Positions 7,334 to 50,549 of a DNA stretch of 64,000 nucleotides are shown in pieces. Below the pieces are notes generated by a model, which made no database searches, was not told the origin of the DNA, and worked only from the letters and a program-made list of their open reading frames with translations. Where the stretch lies: assembly GCA_944323875.1 (NCBI GenBank), contig CALUUH010000001.1:62001-126000 (forward strand). Direction: 5' to 3'. The position numbers were made by a program, and so were the translations under genes. Each line of letters opens with the position of its first letter. The first letter of the stretch is position 1. The stretch comes from Candidatus Gastranaerophilales bacterium. GTDB lineage: Bacteria; Cyanobacteriota; Vampirovibrionia; Gastranaerophilales; Gastranaerophilaceae.

Positions 7334-7609
7334 TTAATGTTCTATTAGAGAAAACTCGGATGGCAGATTTTCTTCAACACGTCTTAACAGTTCAGACGGT
7401 TTTAAATTTAATGCTTCACACAATGTCCAAATAGAGATTAATTTGGGTTCATTAATTCCGTTTTCAAGCCTGCTTATTAACGATTTTTGAATATCAAATT
7501 CATCGGCAAGCAAGCGTATTGATTTTTTTTGGCTTTCTCTTTCTTGTTTCAATTGTTGCGCCAGTATGGTGAATATTATTTCTGATTTTTTAGTATTTGC
7601 GTGTTGCAT
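7334..7609 (-). CDS. XRE-family helix-turn-helix regulator
   Basis: A 91-residue single-domain HTH_3/XRE protein. The helix-turn-helix runs through QKKSIRLLADEFDIQKSLIS and RLENGINEPKLISIWTLCEALN, with the usual RLE-G-N pattern. It is divergent from the pseudopilin at 7676; the 66-bp gap holds the pilin promoter and an inverted repeat, and the -35 box overlaps the regulator's own start codon. That makes it the likely local and self-regulator. Two other pseudopilins in the window have the same arrangement. Confidence 0.85.
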   Translation of the reverse strand: MQHANTKKSEIIFTILAQQLKQERESQKKSIRLLADEFDIQKSLISRLENGINEPKLISIWTLCEALNLKPSELLRRVEENLPSEFSLIEH

Positions 7610-7632
7610 ATATAGAAATCTTAGTATATAAT
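7604..7632 (+). promoter_or_regulatory. Pseudopilin promoter
   Basis: TTGCAT (7604-7609), 17 bp, TATAAT (7627-7632), 43 bp ahead of the ATG at 7676. It overlaps the start codon of the divergent XRE gene and one arm of the candidate operator. Confidence 0.7.
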
Positions 7633-7651
7633 TCTGCTATAGGTTTCTATA
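7611..7651. promoter_or_regulatory. Candidate XRE operator
   Basis: TATAGAAATC (7611-7620) and GGTTTCTATA (7642-7651) are inverted with 9 of 10 positions matched. One arm lies in the promoter spacer and the other just after the transcription start, the placement expected for repression by the adjacent XRE protein. Confidence 0.5.
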
Positions 7652-7675
7652 CATAGAACAGCGAAGGAGAATTTT

Positions 7676-9187
7676 ATGACGGATTTTAAAAACTATTTAT
7701 CAGGTAACGCGTTTACACTCACCAAGGGCAGGCAAGCCTGGCAGACGAAGTCTGGCGGACAAGTCCGCTCTTACACATCAAAGGTGAGTAAAGTGAGTAG
7801 AGTGAGTGAGGTGAGTAAGATGTCGAAACAAGGCGAACAGCAATCGCTACATTTCCTTCTACCTATGGGAGAAGGTGGCCGCAGGCCGGATGAGGGTGCG
7901 GACTACGTCCGCTCTTACATGGAGACCTCTAAAGAAGTACGGTCAACATTTGAACATACCCTCGCCCCTTGCGGGAGAGGGCAGAATTTGTTAGCGAACG
8001 AATGTGAGCTTAGAAATTCGGGTGAGGGGTCAGGCAAAAGCAACATGACCGAAACAACCCCTCACCAAGTTAGGACTAAACTCGCTAGACGCTCGTTAAG
8101 TCCAACTATCCTCTCCCGCAAGGGGCGAGGAATGCGCGCCGCTTTCACCTTGGCTGAAGTATTAATCACTCTCGCGGTCATCGGGATAGTAGCAGTTCTG
8201 ACGCTGCCTAACTTAATCCAAAACCACAATGAGAAGGCATGGTCAACGGCTCAGGATGTGTTTACAAAACGATTGGAGGTCGCAACACGTCAGATGAATA
8301 CAGAAGAAAAACTTGCAGGTTACGACAACACCATGGATTTTGTAAACGAACTAAAGAAATACATCAAAATCACCAGAGTGTGTGACAACAGCGAGATTAC
8401 AAAGTGTTTCAATAAACAAGTAATCTGGAACGAAGGTGATGAACCTGTTGACATGTCTGCAATCAAGAATGCGCAAAACTTTGGACTTGACTGGGAAAGC
8501 GATACAGTAGCGGTACAGTTTGCAAATGGAGTTAATGCGGTTATTGCATATAATCCTAATGCTACACAGGATCCGTTTAATAATCAGTTTAACGCAACTT
8601 CAAACAGCATGGCGATTCTTTACGATGTATCAGGTAACAAGAACCCTAATACGAATGGCAAAGATATTAATCACATCAACGTAACAGAATTAGCAGGCAC
8701 AACCGGTTGTATGATACCTGAATTAGCTGATATAATGTGTATTACTCGCATATTACCTGCTTATCAATATAATCCACTTAATAAAAACGATTGTAATGAT
8801 GACATTTTAAATAAATATGGTATGCAATATTGTTTTGACAGCAGATGGGGCTACCAAAATGATTATTGGGCAGGAGCCGTCATTGCATGCGAAGGAGTAA
8901 ATAATATGCCGACTCGAGAGCAACTAGGTAAATTGGCTATGTACATTTATAATACAGATAGAGAAATTGGGGCAGGAACAAATATAGGCAGCGGATTAAG
9001 CAAAGATCCTGAAAGAGTTGCTCCTTTTGGAACAGGTGACTTTTTTATCTGGTCTAATGAAGAAATCAATGAAGAGAAGGCGTATCAAAGATATTACAGC
9101 TTTAAAGGAACCTATGGGTATTCTAGCAATCTGAACTATGAACGAAATACATCATCATATATGGCTATATGTGTAACACAAAATTAG
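7676..9187 (+). CDS. Type IV pseudopilin with long repeat-derived leader
   Basis: A 503-residue protein with a GAAGGAGA ribosome binding site. The prepilin motif RAAFTLAEVLITLAVIGIVA is at residues 154-173, where leaders are normally 5-30 residues. Residues 12-15 already read AFTL, and the roughly 140 residues between are translated repeats: GRQAWQTKSGGQVRS, KVSKVSRVSEVSKMS (9-bp tandem repeat), GEGGRRPDEG, VRSYMETSKEVRSTF and LAPCGRGQN. The C-terminal domain (WAGAVIACEG-VNNMPTREQLGKLA ... FFIWSNEEI ... MAICVTQN) resembles that of the pilin at 62125 and recalls C-type-lectin-like folds. Sec export and a prepilin peptidase would be required. Whether the long leader is really translated from this start is uncertain. 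Confidence 0.8.
   Translation: MTDFKNYLSGNAFTLTKGRQAWQTKSGGQVRSYTSKVSKVSRVSEVSKMSKQGEQQSLHFLLPMGEGGRRPDEGADYVRSYMETSKEVRSTFEHTLAPCGRGQNLLANECELRNSGEGSGKSNMTETTPHQVRTKLARRSLSPTILSRKGRGMRAAFTLAEVLITLAVIGIVAVLTLPNLIQNHNEKAWSTAQDVFTKRLEVATRQMNTEEKLAGYDNTMDFVNELKKYIKITRVCDNSEITKCFNKQVIWNEGDEPVDMSAIKNAQNFGLDWESDTVAVQFANGVNAVIAYNPNATQDPFNNQFNATSNSMAILYDVSGNKNPNTNGKDINHINVTELAGTTGCMIPELADIMCITRILPAYQYNPLNKNDCNDDILNKYGMQYCFDSRWGYQNDYWAGAVIACEGVNNMPTREQLGKLAMYIYNTDREIGAGTNIGSGLSKDPERVAPFGTGDFFIWSNEEINEEKAYQRYYSFKGTYGYSSNLNYERNTSSYMAICVTQN
7709..8140 (+). repeat. REP-like repeat modules inside the pilin leader
   Basis: This coding stretch is made of short hairpins (CAGGC-AA-GCCTG, AGAC-GAA-GTCT, CGGAC-AA-GTCCG, GCGGAC-TAC-GTCCGC), a 9-bp GTGAGTnnn tandem repeat (five copies) and longer palindromic pieces with GGGAGAAGGTGGCCGCAGG and CCCCTTGCGGGAGAGGG. 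Matching pieces occur in the leaders at 48026-48256 and 62280-62496. Its base composition is far richer in GC than the rest of the gene. Confidence 0.7.
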
Positions 9188-9453: not shown

Positions 9454-10389
9454 ATGGAAGAATTTAAGCATTACACGGTGATGAAGAATGAAGCTGTTGA
9501 CGCGCTTGAATGCAGTGACGGCAAGATTTATGTTGACTGCACACTCGGCGGCGGAGGCCACAGCGGGCTTATATTAAGCAGAATACAGCCCAATGGAAGA
9601 CTTATTGCGTTTGATGTTGATGAAGATGCTATAAAAGCATCTTCCGAACGCTTAAAAGATTACAAAAACTTAACAATTGTACAGGACTCCTATACTAATA
9701 TTAAGAAAGTTTTACAAAATTTAGGTATAGAAAAAATAACGGGCGGAGTGCTGTTCGACCTTGGCGCATCTTATCATCAATTCAACAAAGCCGAGCGCGG
9801 ATTTTCCTTTTCAAAAGACGCTCCGCTGGATATGAGATTTAATCAGGATGCGGATTTTTCCGCGTATGATGTTGTAAATTCTTATTCTGAAAACGATCTT
9901 GTGCGTATTTTTTCAGAATATGGAGAAGAAAGATTTTCCAAAAGAATAGCAAAAAAAATAGTAGAGCAAAGAAAGCTGAAAAAGCTTGAAACGACTTGTG
10001 AACTGGCTGATTTAATCGTTAACTGCACCCCGCACATAAAATCCTCCATTCACCCTGCAACACGTGTGTTTCAGGCCATAAGAATAGAAGTTAATCAAGA
10101 GTTAACAAATGTAAAAAATACATTGAAGGATGTGTTGGATTTATTGGACTTTGGTGCTATAATAAGTGTGATAAGTTTTCACTCATTAGAGGATAGGTTG
10201 GTGAAACACTTATTCAAATATCACTCGCAAAAGTGCCACTGCGGCAAAAACGAAATGATTTGCCACTGTCCGCCGCCAATACTGGAGTTGGTTAATAAAA
10301 AACCAATAGTTGCAAGTGATGAGGAGATAAAAGAAAATCCGCCTTCAAGAAGCGCTAAACTGAGAGTAGCAAGGTGTATAAGACGGTAA
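9454..10389 (+). CDS. rsmH: 16S rRNA (cytosine-1402-N4)-methyltransferase
   Basis: RsmH (MraW) methylates C1402 of 16S rRNA using SAM. The 311-residue length is standard. It begins HYTVMKNEAVDAL, then VDCTLGGGGHSGLIL (SAM-binding glycine motif), FDLGASYHQF and ERGFSFSKDAPLDMRF, with FHSLEDRLVKHLF and PPSRSAKLRVA at the C-terminus. As in dcw clusters, an ftsL-like gene follows immediately, but no ftsI or mur gene follows in the window, so the division cluster is broken up. Confidence 0.97.
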   Translation: MEEFKHYTVMKNEAVDALECSDGKIYVDCTLGGGGHSGLILSRIQPNGRLIAFDVDEDAIKASSERLKDYKNLTIVQDSYTNIKKVLQNLGIEKITGGVLFDLGASYHQFNKAERGFSFSKDAPLDMRFNQDADFSAYDVVNSYSENDLVRIFSEYGEERFSKRIAKKIVEQRKLKKLETTCELADLIVNCTPHIKSSIHPATRVFQAIRIEVNQELTNVKNTLKDVLDLLDFGAIISVISFHSLEDRLVKHLFKYHSQKCHCGKNEMICHCPPPILELVNKKPIVASDEEIKENPPSRSAKLRVARCIRR

Positions 10390-10434
10390 ACACAATTAAA
10401 TAGTTAACTTTTGAACAAAATTGGGGTAGGAATT

Positions 10435-10896
10435 TTGAACACAGCAAGAGTAAGAACAGAAGAAGCTTATGCTTACAGATACCAGCAGCAATACGGCACT
10501 AATCCGGTACAGCAAAAAGCGTCTGTTATTGAAGGGTATTTTCAACAAGAAGATTTGGTTAAAGCTATGGCAATAAGAAAAGTCAATAAAACTTTGTGCG
10601 GTTTGTTAGGTATACTTGTCGTGACGGCATTTGTAAGTTATTATTTTGCAATGAACTGCGAATTAACTTTGAACACACTTTCACGTCAAATCACGACTTT
10701 AAACGATGAAAACGCTGAATTACAAAATAATTTAGACCGATTAAAATCATTCAACAATGTTGATACCAAAATGATCCAACAAAACTTGCTTCAAAAAGCG
10801 GAAAAGGTCATGGAAGTACCGGCGGTTAAATCTGTTGAGAGCGTTGAAAAACAGCCTGCAAAATCCGCTCCGTTTAACTGGCTTATCGGTTATTAA
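10435..10896 (+). CDS. FtsL-like cell division protein
   Basis: A bitopic membrane protein with a polar N-terminus, one transmembrane helix (about TLCGLLGILVVTAFVSYYFA), then a coiled coil (LNTLSRQITTLNDENAELQ) on the periplasmic side. That topology and the position after rsmH fit FtsL, which forms the FtsQLB complex. Two in-frame TTG starts exist (10411 and 10435). The second has GGTAGGA just upstream but spacing is tight, so the start is uncertain and the first would add 8 residues. Sequence similarity alone would not identify it. Confidence 0.7.
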   Translation: MNTARVRTEEAYAYRYQQQYGTNPVQQKASVIEGYFQQEDLVKAMAIRKVNKTLCGLLGILVVTAFVSYYFAMNCELTLNTLSRQITTLNDENAELQNNLDRLKSFNNVDTKMIQQNLLQKAEKVMEVPAVKSVESVEKQPAKSAPFNWLIGY

Positions 10897-37655: not shown

Positions 37656-37727
37656 TAATTATAACAAATAAAAATTAACAAAGAAAATTATTTAAAACAT
37701 TTACCTGTGTGTGTTATTATAATTAGT

Positions 37728-38570
37728 ATGATGAACTACTTCGAACGGGCAAGATACTTTAGAACAAAAAAAAGATTAGGCCAGAATTTTCTGATTAACG
37801 GTGATGTAATTCAGGCTATCATAGATTTTGCGGACATACATCCTGATGATACTGTTGTCGAAATAGGGCCGGGTGTCGGCTTTGTAACCGAACAGTTAGT
37901 CAAGCATGCCGGAAAAGTTATTGCAATAGAACTGGATGAAGAAGCTGTTAAGGAATTAGAAAAGCTTAATGCGCCAAATCTTGAAATAATTCATAAAGAT
38001 ATTCTGAAAACCGATTTATCCGAACTTTGCGAAGGGAAAATAAAAATTGTAGCGAATATACCGTATTACATAACAAGTCCTATTATTGCGCACCTGTTGG
38101 GTGAAGTCGATGATTTAAACAACAAAAACAGAAACAAAATCACCGATATAATTCTTATGGTTCAGGAAGAAGTTGCGCGCAGAATGACGGCCGACGAAAA
38201 TTCACCGGCAAAACAATACGGCCTGTTGACAATCCTGTCACAATTTTGGGCTCAGGTTGAACTGTTAAAACTTGTGGGACGCAAATCATTTTATCCGGCG
38301 CCAAAGGTTAATTCCGCTCTTGTAAAACTTACGGTAAGAGAAAAACCGCTTCTGGAACTGAATGACTACAGCCACTTTAGAAAAACCGTTAAAGCAGGAT
38401 TTTCGCAACGACGCAAAAATATTAAAAACTGTCTTGTAAGCAATGGATTTTCAAAAGAAAATGTCAAAAATGCGCTTGAAAAATTAGGGCTGGATGAAAA
38501 TATCCGCGGCGAAAAGCTTTCTATTGAAATGTTTGGCAAACTTTCAGAGGAATTGAAAAATGGACAATAA
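37728..38570 (+). CDS. rsmA: 16S rRNA dimethyladenosine transferase
   Basis: RsmA (KsgA) dimethylates A1518/A1519 of 16S rRNA. The start is ATG 37728 or the next codon; further upstream codons look non-coding. RTKKRLGQNFLIN, VVEIGPGVGFVTEQL (SAM motif I), VANIPYYITSPIIAHLL (motif IV, NIPY) and VQEEVARRMTA are diagnostic. SFYPAPKVNSALVKL is the usual C-terminal signature. It overlaps ispE by 11 bp, implying translational coupling. Confidence 0.97.
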   Translation: MMNYFERARYFRTKKRLGQNFLINGDVIQAIIDFADIHPDDTVVEIGPGVGFVTEQLVKHAGKVIAIELDEEAVKELEKLNAPNLEIIHKDILKTDLSELCEGKIKIVANIPYYITSPIIAHLLGEVDDLNNKNRNKITDIILMVQEEVARRMTADENSPAKQYGLLTILSQFWAQVELLKLVGRKSFYPAPKVNSALVKLTVREKPLLELNDYSHFRKTVKAGFSQRRKNIKNCLVSNGFSKENVKNALEKLGLDENIRGEKLSIEMFGKLSEELKNGQ

Positions 38571-46196: not shown

Positions 46197-46985
46197 TTAA
46201 AATTTTAGCGGGTAATCGTCAGGAATTTTCCAACCGTTCATTTGGATTAACTTTGTACAATATGCTCGTTCGTTAGATACAGCTTCTTTACAGCCTATGG
46301 CATTATCATTTTTAAGGTTTTCAACTGTACCATCCCATCCTTGTAGATATGGTTCAAGTCCTTTTTTATAATGATACTTCCAGTTTACATCATCTTTATA
46401 TTTTTCATACGGCCAGAAGTGAAATGTAAAATATTTTATACCTGAGCTTTCTCGAGGGTTTCTGTAACTATCATTTTCTTCATCATACACAGGAAGTGAA
46501 TAGTCACTGGCATTTGGCCAAAATTGAAAAGAACCGCTGCTCATTTTACATAAACTACCGTCTGAAAAATATACAATAATTGTAGAAGTTGTATCAAATA
46601 TTTTATCGGTTGTTACGTAATTATACTTAAGGTAAGGTTTAAAATATTTCTCAAACCAAATAAGTTGATTTACGCTGCCTTCAGTTGCGACACCGTCAAG
46701 TTCATCCCAATATTCTTTAGGTCCGTTATCTATTTCAGACAACTGTATTGCCTGATTCATTACTGAATAAAATTTTGCGAGTCGTGTTTCTACAATTTTC
46801 TTTTTGTATGATTGAACCAAATTAGGTATAGTTAAAGCCGCAACAATGCCGATAACCGCCAGAGTAATCAAGATCTCGGCTAGAGTAAAGGCGGCCTTCT
46901 GGGAAGTGATTAAGAATTTACATGAGGCTGGCTCTGCGGCTCCGGAACAGGGTTTGTCATTGTAAAAATTCTCATTCTTGTTCAT
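46197..46985 (-). CDS. Type IV pseudopilin with 32-residue leader
   Basis: A 262-residue protein; ATG 46985 follows AAAGGAGA. The prepilin motif QKAAFTLAEILITLAVIGIV puts the cleavage site before Phe-33. The leader ends PASCKFLITSQKA, the same as the leader of the pilin at 47267. The mature part is a typical N-terminal helix (NLVQSYKKKIVETRLAKFYS) and a variable domain with several Trp and two C-terminal cysteines. It is divergent from the XRE gene at 47061 across a 75-bp operator-like gap. Confidence 0.88.
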   Translation of the reverse strand: MNKNENFYNDKPCSGAAEPASCKFLITSQKAAFTLAEILITLAVIGIVAALTIPNLVQSYKKKIVETRLAKFYSVMNQAIQLSEIDNGPKEYWDELDGVATEGSVNQLIWFEKYFKPYLKYNYVTTDKIFDTTSTIIVYFSDGSLCKMSSGSFQFWPNASDYSLPVYDEENDSYRNPRESSGIKYFTFHFWPYEKYKDDVNWKYHYKKGLEPYLQGWDGTVENLKNDNAIGCKEAVSNERAYCTKLIQMNGWKIPDDYPLKF

Positions 46986-47015
46986 ACAATCTCCTTTCAA
47001 ATTCGATGCCGGACA

Positions 47016-47060
47016 AATAGGTCACTGACTTATGCATAAGTTTAAGGCAAAATAGGTCAC
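47016..47060. promoter_or_regulatory. Candidate operator between pilin and XRE gene
   Basis: Two direct copies of AATAGGTCAC (47016-47025 and 47051-47060) flank a perfect palindrome ACTTATGCATAAGT (47028-47041). The second copy abuts the XRE start codon. TATGCATAAGTCA also occurs downstream of the 7676 pilin (about 9300). Confidence 0.5.
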
Positions 47061-47270
47061 ATGTCAAGGCTTAAAAAGTTAGGGAAAAATATAGCATATT
47101 ACAGGCAGCTAAAGGGCTGGTCGCAAGAGTTACTGGCTGAAAAAGTAGACCTCTCACGCGAGTACATAACCCGCGTGGAAAATGGTCAAAAAAATATAAG
47201 CCTGAAAAAATTATTCGCAATTGCCGATGTTCTGGATGCAAAATTCTCCGATTTGACGAATTTTGACTAA
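47061..47270 (+). CDS. XRE-family regulator
   Basis: A 69-residue single-domain helix-turn-helix protein: NIAYYRQLKGWSQELLAEKV, DLSREYITRVENGQKNISLK, then LFAIADVLDAKFSDLTNF. Typical SinR/XRE spacing. It is divergent from the pilin at 46197 and its stop overlaps by 4 bp the end of the convergent pilin at 47267. No ribosome binding site precedes the ATG, so the mRNA may be leaderless. Confidence 0.85.
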   Translation: MSRLKKLGKNIAYYRQLKGWSQELLAEKVDLSREYITRVENGQKNISLKKLFAIADVLDAKFSDLTNFD

Positions 47271-48307
47271 TCACACTTTTGTTTACCGGTCCAGCTCAAA
47301 TCATTACAGTGTAGATAATCCATATTACCCTTTTCTATTACCCAGGCTGTGCAGCCATAGCCGGCATCTTCTGATGTGGATGTTCTATTACAATTATTTT
47401 CAAATGTTCTACTACTACTTGGTTCTGTTTTTCCTCCAATTGGCATTATATTATTGGGGTGTATATAAAAATAAAAAATATCTTGTCCAAAAGCATTAGG
47501 CGGTTGCTTAATTCCATTAATATCAATAGCAAAATCACTACATATATCATTCTTATTGGTACAACTAGCCGAATTAACCCATCCACCAATTAAGACCATG
47601 CCGTTATTTAAGGTTATATTAGGAACATTATTGATATCAGACCTTCGCTCTTCACCGTTCAAATTATAATACGCTTTTATTCTGGTACAATTATTTTGCT
47701 CTGGCATACATTTTTCTGTTATATTCAAATTTTTACCTATTTTTTCCCATAGTAATGACATATCATATATCGCGGTATCATTGAAATGGAGATTTCCGTC
47801 TTCATCAGTTTCTACAATACCTGTTTTGTAAAACCCCCAGTTATCAAAATCGCCATTCTCTAACAGAGCCATTTGATATGCAGAATTAATTATGGAATAA
47901 GCTTTTCTAAGTTTCGTCACAGTAACCTTTTCTTTGTATTTCATGACCAGATTAGGTATAGTCAAAGCCGCAACAATACCGATAACCGCCAGAGTAATCA
48001 AGATCTCGGCTAGAGTAAAGGCGGCCTTCTGGGAAGTGATTAAGTGACTAAGTGATTGAGTGATTAAGAATTTACATGAGGCTGGCTTTGCGGTTTTGTG
48101 ACGGGTTTTGTCATAAATTATTGTTGACCGTACTTCTTTAGCGGTCTCCAAAGTGGTAGAGCGGACCTGTCCGCCTTTAGCGGGCACCTGAGTGGTGGTG
48201 CAGGCTAGCCTGCCTTGTCCACTCACCTTACTCACTCTACTCACTTCACTCACTTTTAGTTGTAATGTATTGTCGTTGCGACGCATAGACTTCTCTTTTT
48301 TATTCAT
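47267..48307 (-). CDS. Type IV pseudopilin with repeat-derived leader
   Basis: A 346-residue protein; ATG 48307 follows GGGAGGA. The prepilin motif QKAAFTLAEILITLAVIG lies at residues 93-110. The leader contains KVSEVSRVSKVSG (9-bp repeat), GRLACTTTQVPAK, GGQVRSTTLETAKEVRST and KFLITQSLSHLITSQ, all matched in other leaders or intergenic repeats. The mature domain has several Cys (CMPEQNNC, CTNKND, HCNDLSW) suggesting disulphides. Transcribed from its own promoter, divergent from the XRE gene at 48438. Confidence 0.85.
   Translation of the reverse strand: MNKKEKSMRRNDNTLQLKVSEVSRVSKVSGQGRLACTTTQVPAKGGQVRSTTLETAKEVRSTIIYDKTRHKTAKPASCKFLITQSLSHLITSQKAAFTLAEILITLAVIGIVAALTIPNLVMKYKEKVTVTKLRKAYSIINSAYQMALLENGDFDNWGFYKTGIVETDEDGNLHFNDTAIYDMSLLWEKIGKNLNITEKCMPEQNNCTRIKAYYNLNGEERRSDINNVPNITLNNGMVLIGGWVNSASCTNKNDICSDFAIDINGIKQPPNAFGQDIFYFYIHPNNIMPIGGKTEPSSSRTFENNCNRTSTSEDAGYGCTAWVIEKGNMDYLHCNDLSWTGKQKCD
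48026..48256 (-). repeat. Repeat modules inside pilin leader
   Basis: Contains the 8-bp tandem GTGATTAA/GTGACTAA run (48037-48070 on the plus strand), the CAGGCTAGCCTG and GCGGACAGGTCCGC palindromes and the GTGAGTnnn 9-bp repeat. The same pieces recur at 7709-8140, 62280-62496 and in non-coding DNA at 61260 and 63558. Confidence 0.7.
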
Positions 48308-48324
48308 ATATCCTCCCAAAATAA

Positions 48325-48369
48325 GATGTTATACATCAGTATATTACATAATAAAATCACTTTTGTCAA
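48325..48369 (-). promoter_or_regulatory. Pseudopilin promoter with operator-like repeat
   Basis: Minus strand TTGACA (complement 48364-48369), 17 bp, TAATAT (complement 48341-48346). GATGT-TAT-ACATC (48325-48337) sits at the expected start of transcription. A second inverted repeat TATGAT...ATCATA lies at 48375-48393. Confidence 0.6.
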
Positions 48370-48437
48370 TTAAATATGATTTTTTATATCATAACGCGTC
48401 GGGCTTGAAAATTGTAATATATTTTAAGGAGATTTTT

Positions 48438-48743
48438 ATGGATAATATTAAAGAATTGTTAGGCAGGCGAATACGTGAGTTAAGAAAAGATAAAAAACTC
48501 ACTCAGGAACAATTTGCCGAACTCATTGGTATTGAGCCGCGCAATCTTATAAAAATAGAAAATGCCCAAACATTTCCACGTATACAAACACTGGAGAAAA
48601 TCCTTGAAGTTCTGGATATCTCACCGCAAACATTATTCCGTGTTGAACATCTTGAAGATGTTTCCAAATTACGCAATAAAATAATCGAAAAACTTGAACG
48701 CAATGACGAATTAGTTAAATTAATATATAAAATGCTTTTTTGA
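48438..48743 (+). CDS. XRE-family regulator
   Basis: A 101-residue helix-turn-helix protein: RRIRELRKDKKLTQEQFAEL and EPRNLIKIENAQTFPRIQTL, then a C-terminal helix (VSKLRNKIIEKLERNDELVK). The start at 48438 is set by TTAAGGAGATTTTT; the long upstream in-frame extension is the antisense of the pilin leader. Third XRE gene divergent from a pseudopilin in this window. Confidence 0.85.
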   Translation: MDNIKELLGRRIRELRKDKKLTQEQFAELIGIEPRNLIKIENAQTFPRIQTLEKILEVLDISPQTLFRVEHLEDVSKLRNKIIEKLERNDELVKLIYKMLF

Positions 48744-48778: not shown

Positions 48779-49891
48779 TTAAACTGGTTCTACATCCGAT
48801 TTCTGAATTGAATTAATTAATTTTCGTTTATTATTTATTTTTTGTTTGAATGCATCAAAGAAAAGTTTTTTATAAAAAGGTTTAGGCCATCTGACATAAG
48901 ATAAATCATAATCAAAATCACTTAAATTAAACAACGATTGTAATATTTTAGAAGACAAACTTTTTTGAGCATAAGGATTTTCCATCAAGACAGTTTTTGC
49001 GCTGAATATGAATAATACAGCAGAAATTTTACGATTTTCTTTACGCTGAAACATACCGTCAAACTGTAATTTTGCTATCTTCCCTATTCCCTTATACCCC
49101 TCCAAAACAAGATCTCCATGTTTAGCATAAAGCGCTTGCCATAAGTTTCCGGAAAAAAATCCATACATGCCACCGGCAATAATAGGTGTTGTATGTTCAT
49201 AGTTAACGCACCACATATCATCATTTAAAAAATTTATGACAAGTATATTCATTTCATTTTCCTTTAGCTGCTTTTTACCGAATTTTATATTTGAAATTTT
49301 ACTTATACAATTTTCGGCTGCTGTTGAATATTTAGGGTTGTTTCCCATTGGAGAAATTTCCATAATATAACTTTGAACAGGAACATCAGGAGATAAATTA
49401 TTTTGAAATTTTGTCATCTCATCTTTTTGCCTTTTTGCTTCTTTTTCATTCATACTTGGCGTATTAACTTCAATATTAACTTTTTCTTTTAAATAATTAT
49501 ACATAAAATCTGAGGTCTGCTGATCTTTGACAGTAGCTACAGGTGTAAGCTCAGTTATATTATTAAAAATTGATATCGTATGTATTTCGCCTAAAATAGC
49601 ATATTTTTGTTCCGGCTTATTAGTTTTAACATAATCTTTTATTTTAGAGGTTAACCAGCTATTCCATTTTTTATCTTTTATCATTTTTTTAACAATATTA
49701 TTTAACTTGTAAACGATATGGCTGGTAGAATTATTATTCGCACGTTTTTTTAAAGTCGTAATATTATAATACTCGGTTAATAATTTACCTAGTGGATCAT
49801 TTGAATCCTCAAGTATATTTTTAAGTACATCATCATTAAATAGCTGGCTCAAATCAGAAAGCCTTGTTTGTATTTCATCAACTAAAACCAT
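48779..49891 (-). CDS. Hypothetical protein, possible nuclease-like fold
   Basis: A 370-residue AT-rich gene, second of a pair. I recognise no family. The region YAILGEIHTISIFNN ... QTSDFMYNYL ... VNIEVNTPSM has the spacing of a PD-(D/E)XK core (E, D, then ExN where ExK is usual), a weak hint only. Other notable segments are MWCVNYEHTTPIIAGGMYGF and VRWPKPFYKKLFFDAF. It follows the 49917 gene after 25 bp. Confidence 0.65.
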   Translation of the reverse strand: MVLVDEIQTRLSDLSQLFNDDVLKNILEDSNDPLGKLLTEYYNITTLKKRANNNSTSHIVYKLNNIVKKMIKDKKWNSWLTSKIKDYVKTNKPEQKYAILGEIHTISIFNNITELTPVATVKDQQTSDFMYNYLKEKVNIEVNTPSMNEKEAKRQKDEMTKFQNNLSPDVPVQSYIMEISPMGNNPKYSTAAENCISKISNIKFGKKQLKENEMNILVINFLNDDMWCVNYEHTTPIIAGGMYGFFSGNLWQALYAKHGDLVLEGYKGIGKIAKLQFDGMFQRKENRKISAVLFIFSAKTVLMENPYAQKSLSSKILQSLFNLSDFDYDLSYVRWPKPFYKKLFFDAFKQKINNKRKLINSIQKSDVEPV

Positions 49892-49916
49892 AACTGCTCC
49901 TTTGTCATTTATTTTA

Positions 49917-50549
49917 TTAATAATTTATACCTACTCGATTTTTGACAGGATGGATTACGTCAATAACATTCAAATCTCTAAAATGTGAAATAACTTTGAT
50001 ATTATCAGGATTTACAATGGTTTCTTTGGCTAGCAATGCTCCTACAATTGCCTCCAGCTGTGACATCGGCATCATATTCATAGGAAGTTCCAGTCCCCAT
50101 TCACTTCTTAACGTTTGCTGTAAAAACTTACAATCCGCCGGAGAGCGTTCTTTATAGCACGAATTGAGATGCATACTCTGACGTGTTAAATATAGTTCAA
50201 ACCGATCTATTTCTATACCTTTTTCGGTTAAAGATTTAAAATACTCAGATCCTCTGGTGGTATATCTCTGTGTCCAGTTATCTTGATTTGGTATGTGCGG
50301 ATTTGTCGCAACCATTTGATAAGGTTTAGCCAGCACTCGCCACTTTCCGTTCAGCATAGTTCTGTCCCAGGCTAGTGATACACAGATTTTTGAATACTTT
50401 AATGATGAGTAATTATCAAAAAAGTATATTATATCATTGACTTTGTACAACTTGTCAACAAGAATCAGAGTGTTGTTTTCATCCAGTATTGCAAGCCCTG
50501 AATCCATGCTTGAACCGGATGCCAAAGATAATCCTACATAATATTTCAT
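49917..50549 (-). CDS. Hypothetical protein, RNase H-like/DUF429-like
   Basis: A 210-residue protein beginning MKYYVGLSLASGSSMDSGLA, ILDENNTLILVD, typical of the first strands of an RNase H-like fold (DUF429-type). SKICVSLAWDRTMLNGKWRV and LEAIVGALLAKE fit the later acidic positions. Family assignment is tentative. It pairs with the gene at 48779 and lies next to the toxin-like modules. Confidence 0.6.
   Translation of the reverse strand: MKYYVGLSLASGSSMDSGLAILDENNTLILVDKLYKVNDIIYFFDNYSSLKYSKICVSLAWDRTMLNGKWRVLAKPYQMVATNPHIPNQDNWTQRYTTRGSEYFKSLTEKGIEIDRFELYLTRQSMHLNSCYKERSPADCKFLQQTLRSEWGLELPMNMMPMSQLEAIVGALLAKETIVNPDNIKVISHFRDLNVIDVIHPVKNRVGINY

Follow-up and report, generated by a model that had tools for sequence, protein, structure and literature searches.

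Two small XRE regulator genes, each divergent from a pilin gene, lie side by side at positions 46197 to 48743 of the window (the 64,000-nucleotide stretch of DNA that was analyzed, G000:C1:62001-126000, from a 1.94-Mb genome in 49 contigs that belongs to a Gastranaerophilales gut bacterium, a relative of cyanobacteria). The order and strands of the four genes in the ORF layout match the initial annotation, which read them as two interlocked pairs with unlike operators, implying specific rather than shared control. Do the two pairs form a single unit, and does each XRE protein act on its own pilin?

Two modules at one locus

The locus is delimited by flanks that we take to be tmk and map-adk-gyrB, named by the appearance of their ORFs and not by family search. 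At this position, G004 has one pilin with XRE2, G023 and G026 have one pilin with XRE1, and G002 carries XRE2 close to a contig end. The window locus holds both modules, and relatives have one or the other but not both; on this synteny we rejected the idea that the two pairs interlock as a single unit. The 4-bp overlap (CTAA) of XRE1 with the end of pilin 2 at 47267 was confirmed, and in G004 XRE2 shares 4 bp with the following gene in the same manner; since the modules occur singly at this locus in relatives, the overlap is a junction rather than a shared design. Positions 48779-50549 contain two ORFs, of 370 and 210 aa, that match no Pfam or NCBIfam family; the second is retained at the locus in other genera.

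Pilin 1 (46197..46985, minus strand) is a 262-aa protein with a DUF6613 head (PF20318, 97 bits, over the cut-off of 24.3) and a 32-residue leader before the prepilin site. Pilin 2 (47267..48307, minus strand, 346 aa) did not match PF20318 and has a 96-residue leader (48020..48307, minus strand) assembled from repeat segments that occur in other pilin leaders. The starts with a ribosome-binding site are ATG 46985 and ATG 48307, respectively, and not the TTG starts. Both proteins exceed the 16.3-bit cut-off for the prepilin cleavage/methylation motif TIGR02532 (20.8 bits for pilin 1 and 20.5 for pilin 2) and fall just under that of PF07963 (21.1 and 20.8 bits; cut-off, 21.2). Relatives of pilin 1 that bear names come mostly from Candidatus Gastranaerophilales and other Melainabacteria assemblies. 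Its structure model (mean pLDDT of 86.8) gave no Foldseek match at E<=0.001; the top VIA-align match was Thermus PilA5 (Z=5.2, rmsd of 3.3, 87 aligned), and other pilins were found at Z values of 3 to 4, mixed with unrelated entries. In many pilins of this genome, the prepilin site is preceded by a leader of 60 to 240 residues, built as an in-frame mosaic of repeat segments (e.g., L065:1873-2613). Of the 117 matches to one such leader, 85 fall within pilin leaders, which make up 1.4% of the genome, and 76 of the 85 are on the same strand. Long leaders are not general, since the gaps of G023 are short.

Gap 1 (46986..47060, 75 bp), between the divergent pilin 1 and XRE1, contains direct repeats AAATAGGTCAC of at least 11 bp with a spacing of 35 bp, both on the plus strand: copy 1 (47015..47025) is a candidate XRE1 site, and copy 2 (47050..47060) ends at the XRE1 start codon. 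Relatives of XRE1 (55 to 78% identity) were found in 11 other genomes with an identical gap layout, and the 10-bp repeat core shows a mean identity in these ortholog gaps of 85% (copy 1) and 93% (copy 2), figures lowered by 2 of the 11 gaps, in which the alignment is shifted by one or two bases. The repeats are thus conserved in other genera. The initial annotation had described a palindrome between the direct repeats as an operator-like signal. Both elements are present and the repeats are conserved, but the palindrome, ACTTATGCATAAGT (47028..47041), has a mean identity of 51% across ortholog gaps, where its arms pair at 2 to 5 of 7 positions. As none of the 11 keeps it exactly, we rejected it as an operator and consider that it probably arose by chance. 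The pattern AATAGGTCAC occurs twice in the window (the mean in shuffles was 0.13, and 3 of 100 reached two), and these two occurrences, both in gap 1, are the only ones in the genome; the backwards control pattern has seven. GATGTNNNACATC occurs once in the window (shuffle mean of 0.01).

XRE1 (47061..47270, plus strand) has 69 aa (PF01381, 60.3 bits), and the nearest solved sequences are C.AhdI (E=1.9e-7) and C.BclI (E=2.7e-7). It lacks an upstream ribosome-binding site, and a -10-like box lies 7 nt before its ATG. The predicted XRE1 promoter, CTGACT-17-CAAAAT (47025..47053, plus strand), is leaderless-like, a weak match to the consensus, and flanked by the repeats on both sides, while a good pilin promoter is absent from gap 1 (z=0.2). 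Because only 7 of the 12 module 1 gaps have a nearby pilin and 4 have no pilin motif (the remaining one has a remoter pilin-like motif), the module 1 switch is not tied to pilins. In seven module 1 relatives, XRE identity is 67 to 91%, against 20 to 39% (of the shorter protein) for the pilins after their first 30 residues. The same contrast between conserved XREs and variable heads is seen in several other clusters, cluster 6 being an exception (heads at 26 to 92%), and may reflect either fast divergence or replacement.

Gap 2 (48308..48437, 130 bp) separates pilin 2 from the divergent XRE2 (48438..48743, plus strand), a 101-aa protein (PF12844, 55.5 bits; PF01381, 51.1 bits) with a ribosome-binding site before ATG 48438. 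The predicted pilin 2 promoter, TTGACA-17-TAATAT (48341..48369, minus strand), has its -10 (TAATAT) at 48341-48346 and TTGACA 17 bp upstream, and its -35 is kept in all four ortholog gaps. GATGT-TAT-ACATC (48325..48337), previously placed at a -10 box, falls just past this -10, where transcription of pilin 2 is predicted to begin, and GATGT-n3-ACATC is intact in one of the four ortholog gaps. The best-conserved site of gap 2, and our best candidate for an XRE2 site, is TGATTTTTTATATCAT (48377..48392), an inverted repeat adjoining the pilin -35. It is exact in two of the four ortholog gaps, with the arms mostly retained in the other two, and has one copy in the window and none in 100 shuffles. 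XREs of the XRE2 family often adjoin other genes, a pilin motif being present at 10 of 30 loci with the stricter of the patterns used.

Divergent pairing across the genome

Domain matches in the 1.94-Mb genome amount to 64 for HTH_3 (XRE) and 87 for N_methyl (pilin), i.e., one pilin gene per ~22 kb in a small genome; four PF00437 matches further show type IV filament-type assembly ATPases. Counting solely PF01381 and PF07963 matches, 38 of the 64 XREs are divergent to a pilin, with 130 to 655 bp between the domains, and only three XRE-pilin neighbors within 1.5 kb have other orientations. Random placement (2,000 trials) gave a mean of 1.2 divergent pairs and a maximum of 6. Among the named pilin loci, 29 of 71 have an upstream divergent XRE, compared with a total of three XREs at the other three positions (8 of 79 loci, with <600 bp upstream, were left out). 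The figure of 38 is a minimum, since some unpaired pilins (L057, L060, L062, L052, L053, L070, L075, L078, and L085) are divergent from a small gene that encodes a different type of DNA-binding protein: two of these genes are HTH_26 over the cut-off, and the others are DUF6471-like, weakly or by eye. A third divergent XRE-pilin pair within the window is located at 7388-8203 (C1:69388-70203). Two leader-like ORFs, L249 (G000:C4, about 10272-10555), which is divergent from an XRE, and L250 (G000:C5, about 37686-38097), end before any pilin motif and are perhaps decayed modules.

The pairing is unevenly spread. G023, from another genus of the same family, has 111 pilins and 66 XREs, 43 of them divergent to a pilin, whereas G007, of the same family, has 26 pilins, 10 XREs, and a single divergent XRE. 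For genomes of three further families of the order, the counts are 17, 15, and 11 pilins, 16, 28, and 14 XREs, and 1, 0, and 1 divergent pairs, respectively, so that with six genomes counted the limits of the module expansion are provisional.

The 38 gaps follow a common anatomy. Of these gaps, 28 contain an exact TTGACA oriented toward the pilin (shuffles, mean of 1.2 and maximum of 6), and none contains one oriented toward the XRE. The XREs fall into two kinds. The first (26 of 38; 68 to 101 aa) has no ribosome-binding site and a -10-like box 4 to 10 nt before the ATG, whose mean score was reached in none of 1,000 shuffles; XRE1 of the window was assigned by hand to this class, its AAGG being too far from the ATG. 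The second (12 of 38; 94 to 135 aa) has a ribosome-binding site and no -10-like box. The messages of the short XREs thus look leaderless. Scored against simple shuffles, palindromes passed z=2 in just 14 of the 38 gaps, which makes palindromes alone a weak guide to operators.

Pilins without an HTH_3 neighbor show near-identical DNA just upstream of the start in 21 of 49 cases (including L054, L063, L068, L073, L088, and L093), and several of these 21 carry a CACAAG-n-CTTGTG inverted repeat upstream. These pilins probably form another class, with control in common. In 15 unpaired-pilin loci, Rfam found no known riboswitch upstream, the sole match being a tRNA.

Private or shared control

The proposal of specific control was first drawn from the unlike operators of the two gaps, one of which is the palindrome that we consider probably due to chance. 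The proposal itself is supported by the restriction of AATAGGTCAC to gap 1 and by the different gap motifs that XRE subfamilies keep across genera. Read by eye, several subfamilies retain distinct motifs adjoining pilins (17 of 175 XRE proteins were dropped as repeats, and clusters of fewer than three members were left out). Examples are a TATCGCG-n2-CGCGATA-like motif in L022 and L172, partly decayed in L176, and TTACTGGA-n5-TCCAGTAA in L031, from which L192 is one base off. XRE similarity and gap similarity are only weakly correlated within the genome (Mantel r=0.19, reached by 39 of 2,000 permutations), which gives modest support to specific control.

In an alternative reading, the XREs cross-bind and the pilins belong to one or a few shared regulons. 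In its favor, some related XREs have similar gaps (L028/L013, L011/L016, and L046/L016, whose gap scores are in the top 1 to 4%), and the DNA common to the 21 unpaired pilins looks like common control of that class. However, similar XREs mostly have unlike gaps, the median identity among the 38 paired XREs is 28%, and the XRE1 site core is found only in gap 1, all of which makes this explanation unlikely. We find it similarly improbable that regulation by the XREs is confined to their own or distant genes and that their position next to pilins reflects joint travel or duplication of the modules. Consensus -35 pilin promoters sit within the same gaps, adjoining the conserved sites, and the XRE1 site has no copy elsewhere in the genome, although module gain and loss at one locus, and the retention of the gap beside non-pilin neighbors by 4 of 12 XRE1 orthologs, would fit such an origin. 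In an antitoxin-like addiction module, the XRE would neutralize or silence a harmful pilin. A weak similarity of both XREs to HipB- and Y4mF-type antitoxins speaks for this, although neither reached the curated cut-off of a type II antitoxin family (XRE1 scored best with TIGR03070, 48.2 of 71.65 bits, and XRE2 39.5). The reading is very improbable, as the genes are divergent and form no operon, the XRE is paired with a prepilin whose predicted fold may be pilin-like, and 49 like pilins have no HTH_3 neighbor.

A proposed switch and its known counterparts

We lean toward private, autoregulated, mostly repressing XRE switches over exchangeable pilin heads, a reading that we consider reasonably probable from the sequence comparisons. 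What the sequence itself shows is the pairing, the gap layout, the conservation, and the private sites. Each XRE-pilin pair would be an independent module, in which the small XRE would bind subfamily-specific sites in the divergent promoter region and control its own gene. In most modules it would repress the strong sigma-70 promoter of one pilin; repression is suggested by the strong pilin promoters adjoining a conserved site. Short XREs would be translated from leaderless messages, and the messages of the longer XREs would carry a ribosome-binding site. We infer autoregulation from the fact that the short XREs look leaderless and resemble C proteins. Module 1 may differ: since gap 1 has no good pilin promoter, XRE1 may activate instead, as restriction-modification controller proteins can.

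Dozens of pilin heads would therefore be on separate switches under this model, with heads changing in evolution behind conserved switches: a regulator and its site persist even as the surface portion of their target varies. That the displayed pilin differs between cells or conditions is a guess, as is the bistability of the switches. A bolder version, in which dozens of private bistable XRE switches randomly select the few pilin heads, out of ~90, that a given cell displays, and in which evolution proceeds by head exchange behind conserved switches, is speculative and, in our opinion, rather doubtful; if true, surface diversity would arise by a purely regulatory route, without DNA rearrangement. 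If many pilins are privately switched, what selects the pilin in use becomes directly askable, and the modules would offer a large natural set of XRE-site pairs from which DNA specificity could be learned.

Lambda cI-cro is a known case of an XRE-type repressor in a divergent promoter region, with a leaderless repressor message. The modules resemble it in these respects, repression and the leaderless message being predicted here, and differ in that there are no phage genes and that many modules have their own site and their own target each. For the Gastranaerophilales lineage, we found no report of XRE-pilin pairs in searches of the open-access full-text literature; passages of one study mention partial pilus gene sets in the group and not such pairs (PMC5877343).

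As in Neisseria, many pilin heads with a conserved N terminus are present in one genome. There, silent copies are reported to recombine into one expressed gene (PMC3547852), whereas here a start and a promoter of its own are found for many a pilin gene, and the N-terminal DNA is not common genome-wide. Same-codon use at pilin N termini is 0.351, versus 0.341 expected (3,385 pilin pairs), and we rejected this DNA as a genome-wide recombination hinge; as an exception, the two window pilins share 91% over 81 nt, a value reached by 12 of 3,741 pairs. Streptomyces genomes also contain numerous XRE genes that each have a dedicated partner gene, 15 XRE-DUF397 pairs being described for S. coelicolor (PMC10364602), but the partner there is a small protein encoded downstream and here a divergent pilin.

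The restriction-modification C proteins are short XREs like XRE1 and include its nearest solved sequences, C.AhdI and C.BclI. The AhdI C protein is reported to be made from a leaderless transcript and the EcoRV system has overlapping divergent promoters (PMC5333194), and a bistable switch is reported for PvuII (PMC3695507). No restriction or modification gene lies beside the window XREs, whose neighbors are the pilins and the two ORFs without family matches. The proposed target here is instead a pilin, and a single genome holds dozens of such modules.
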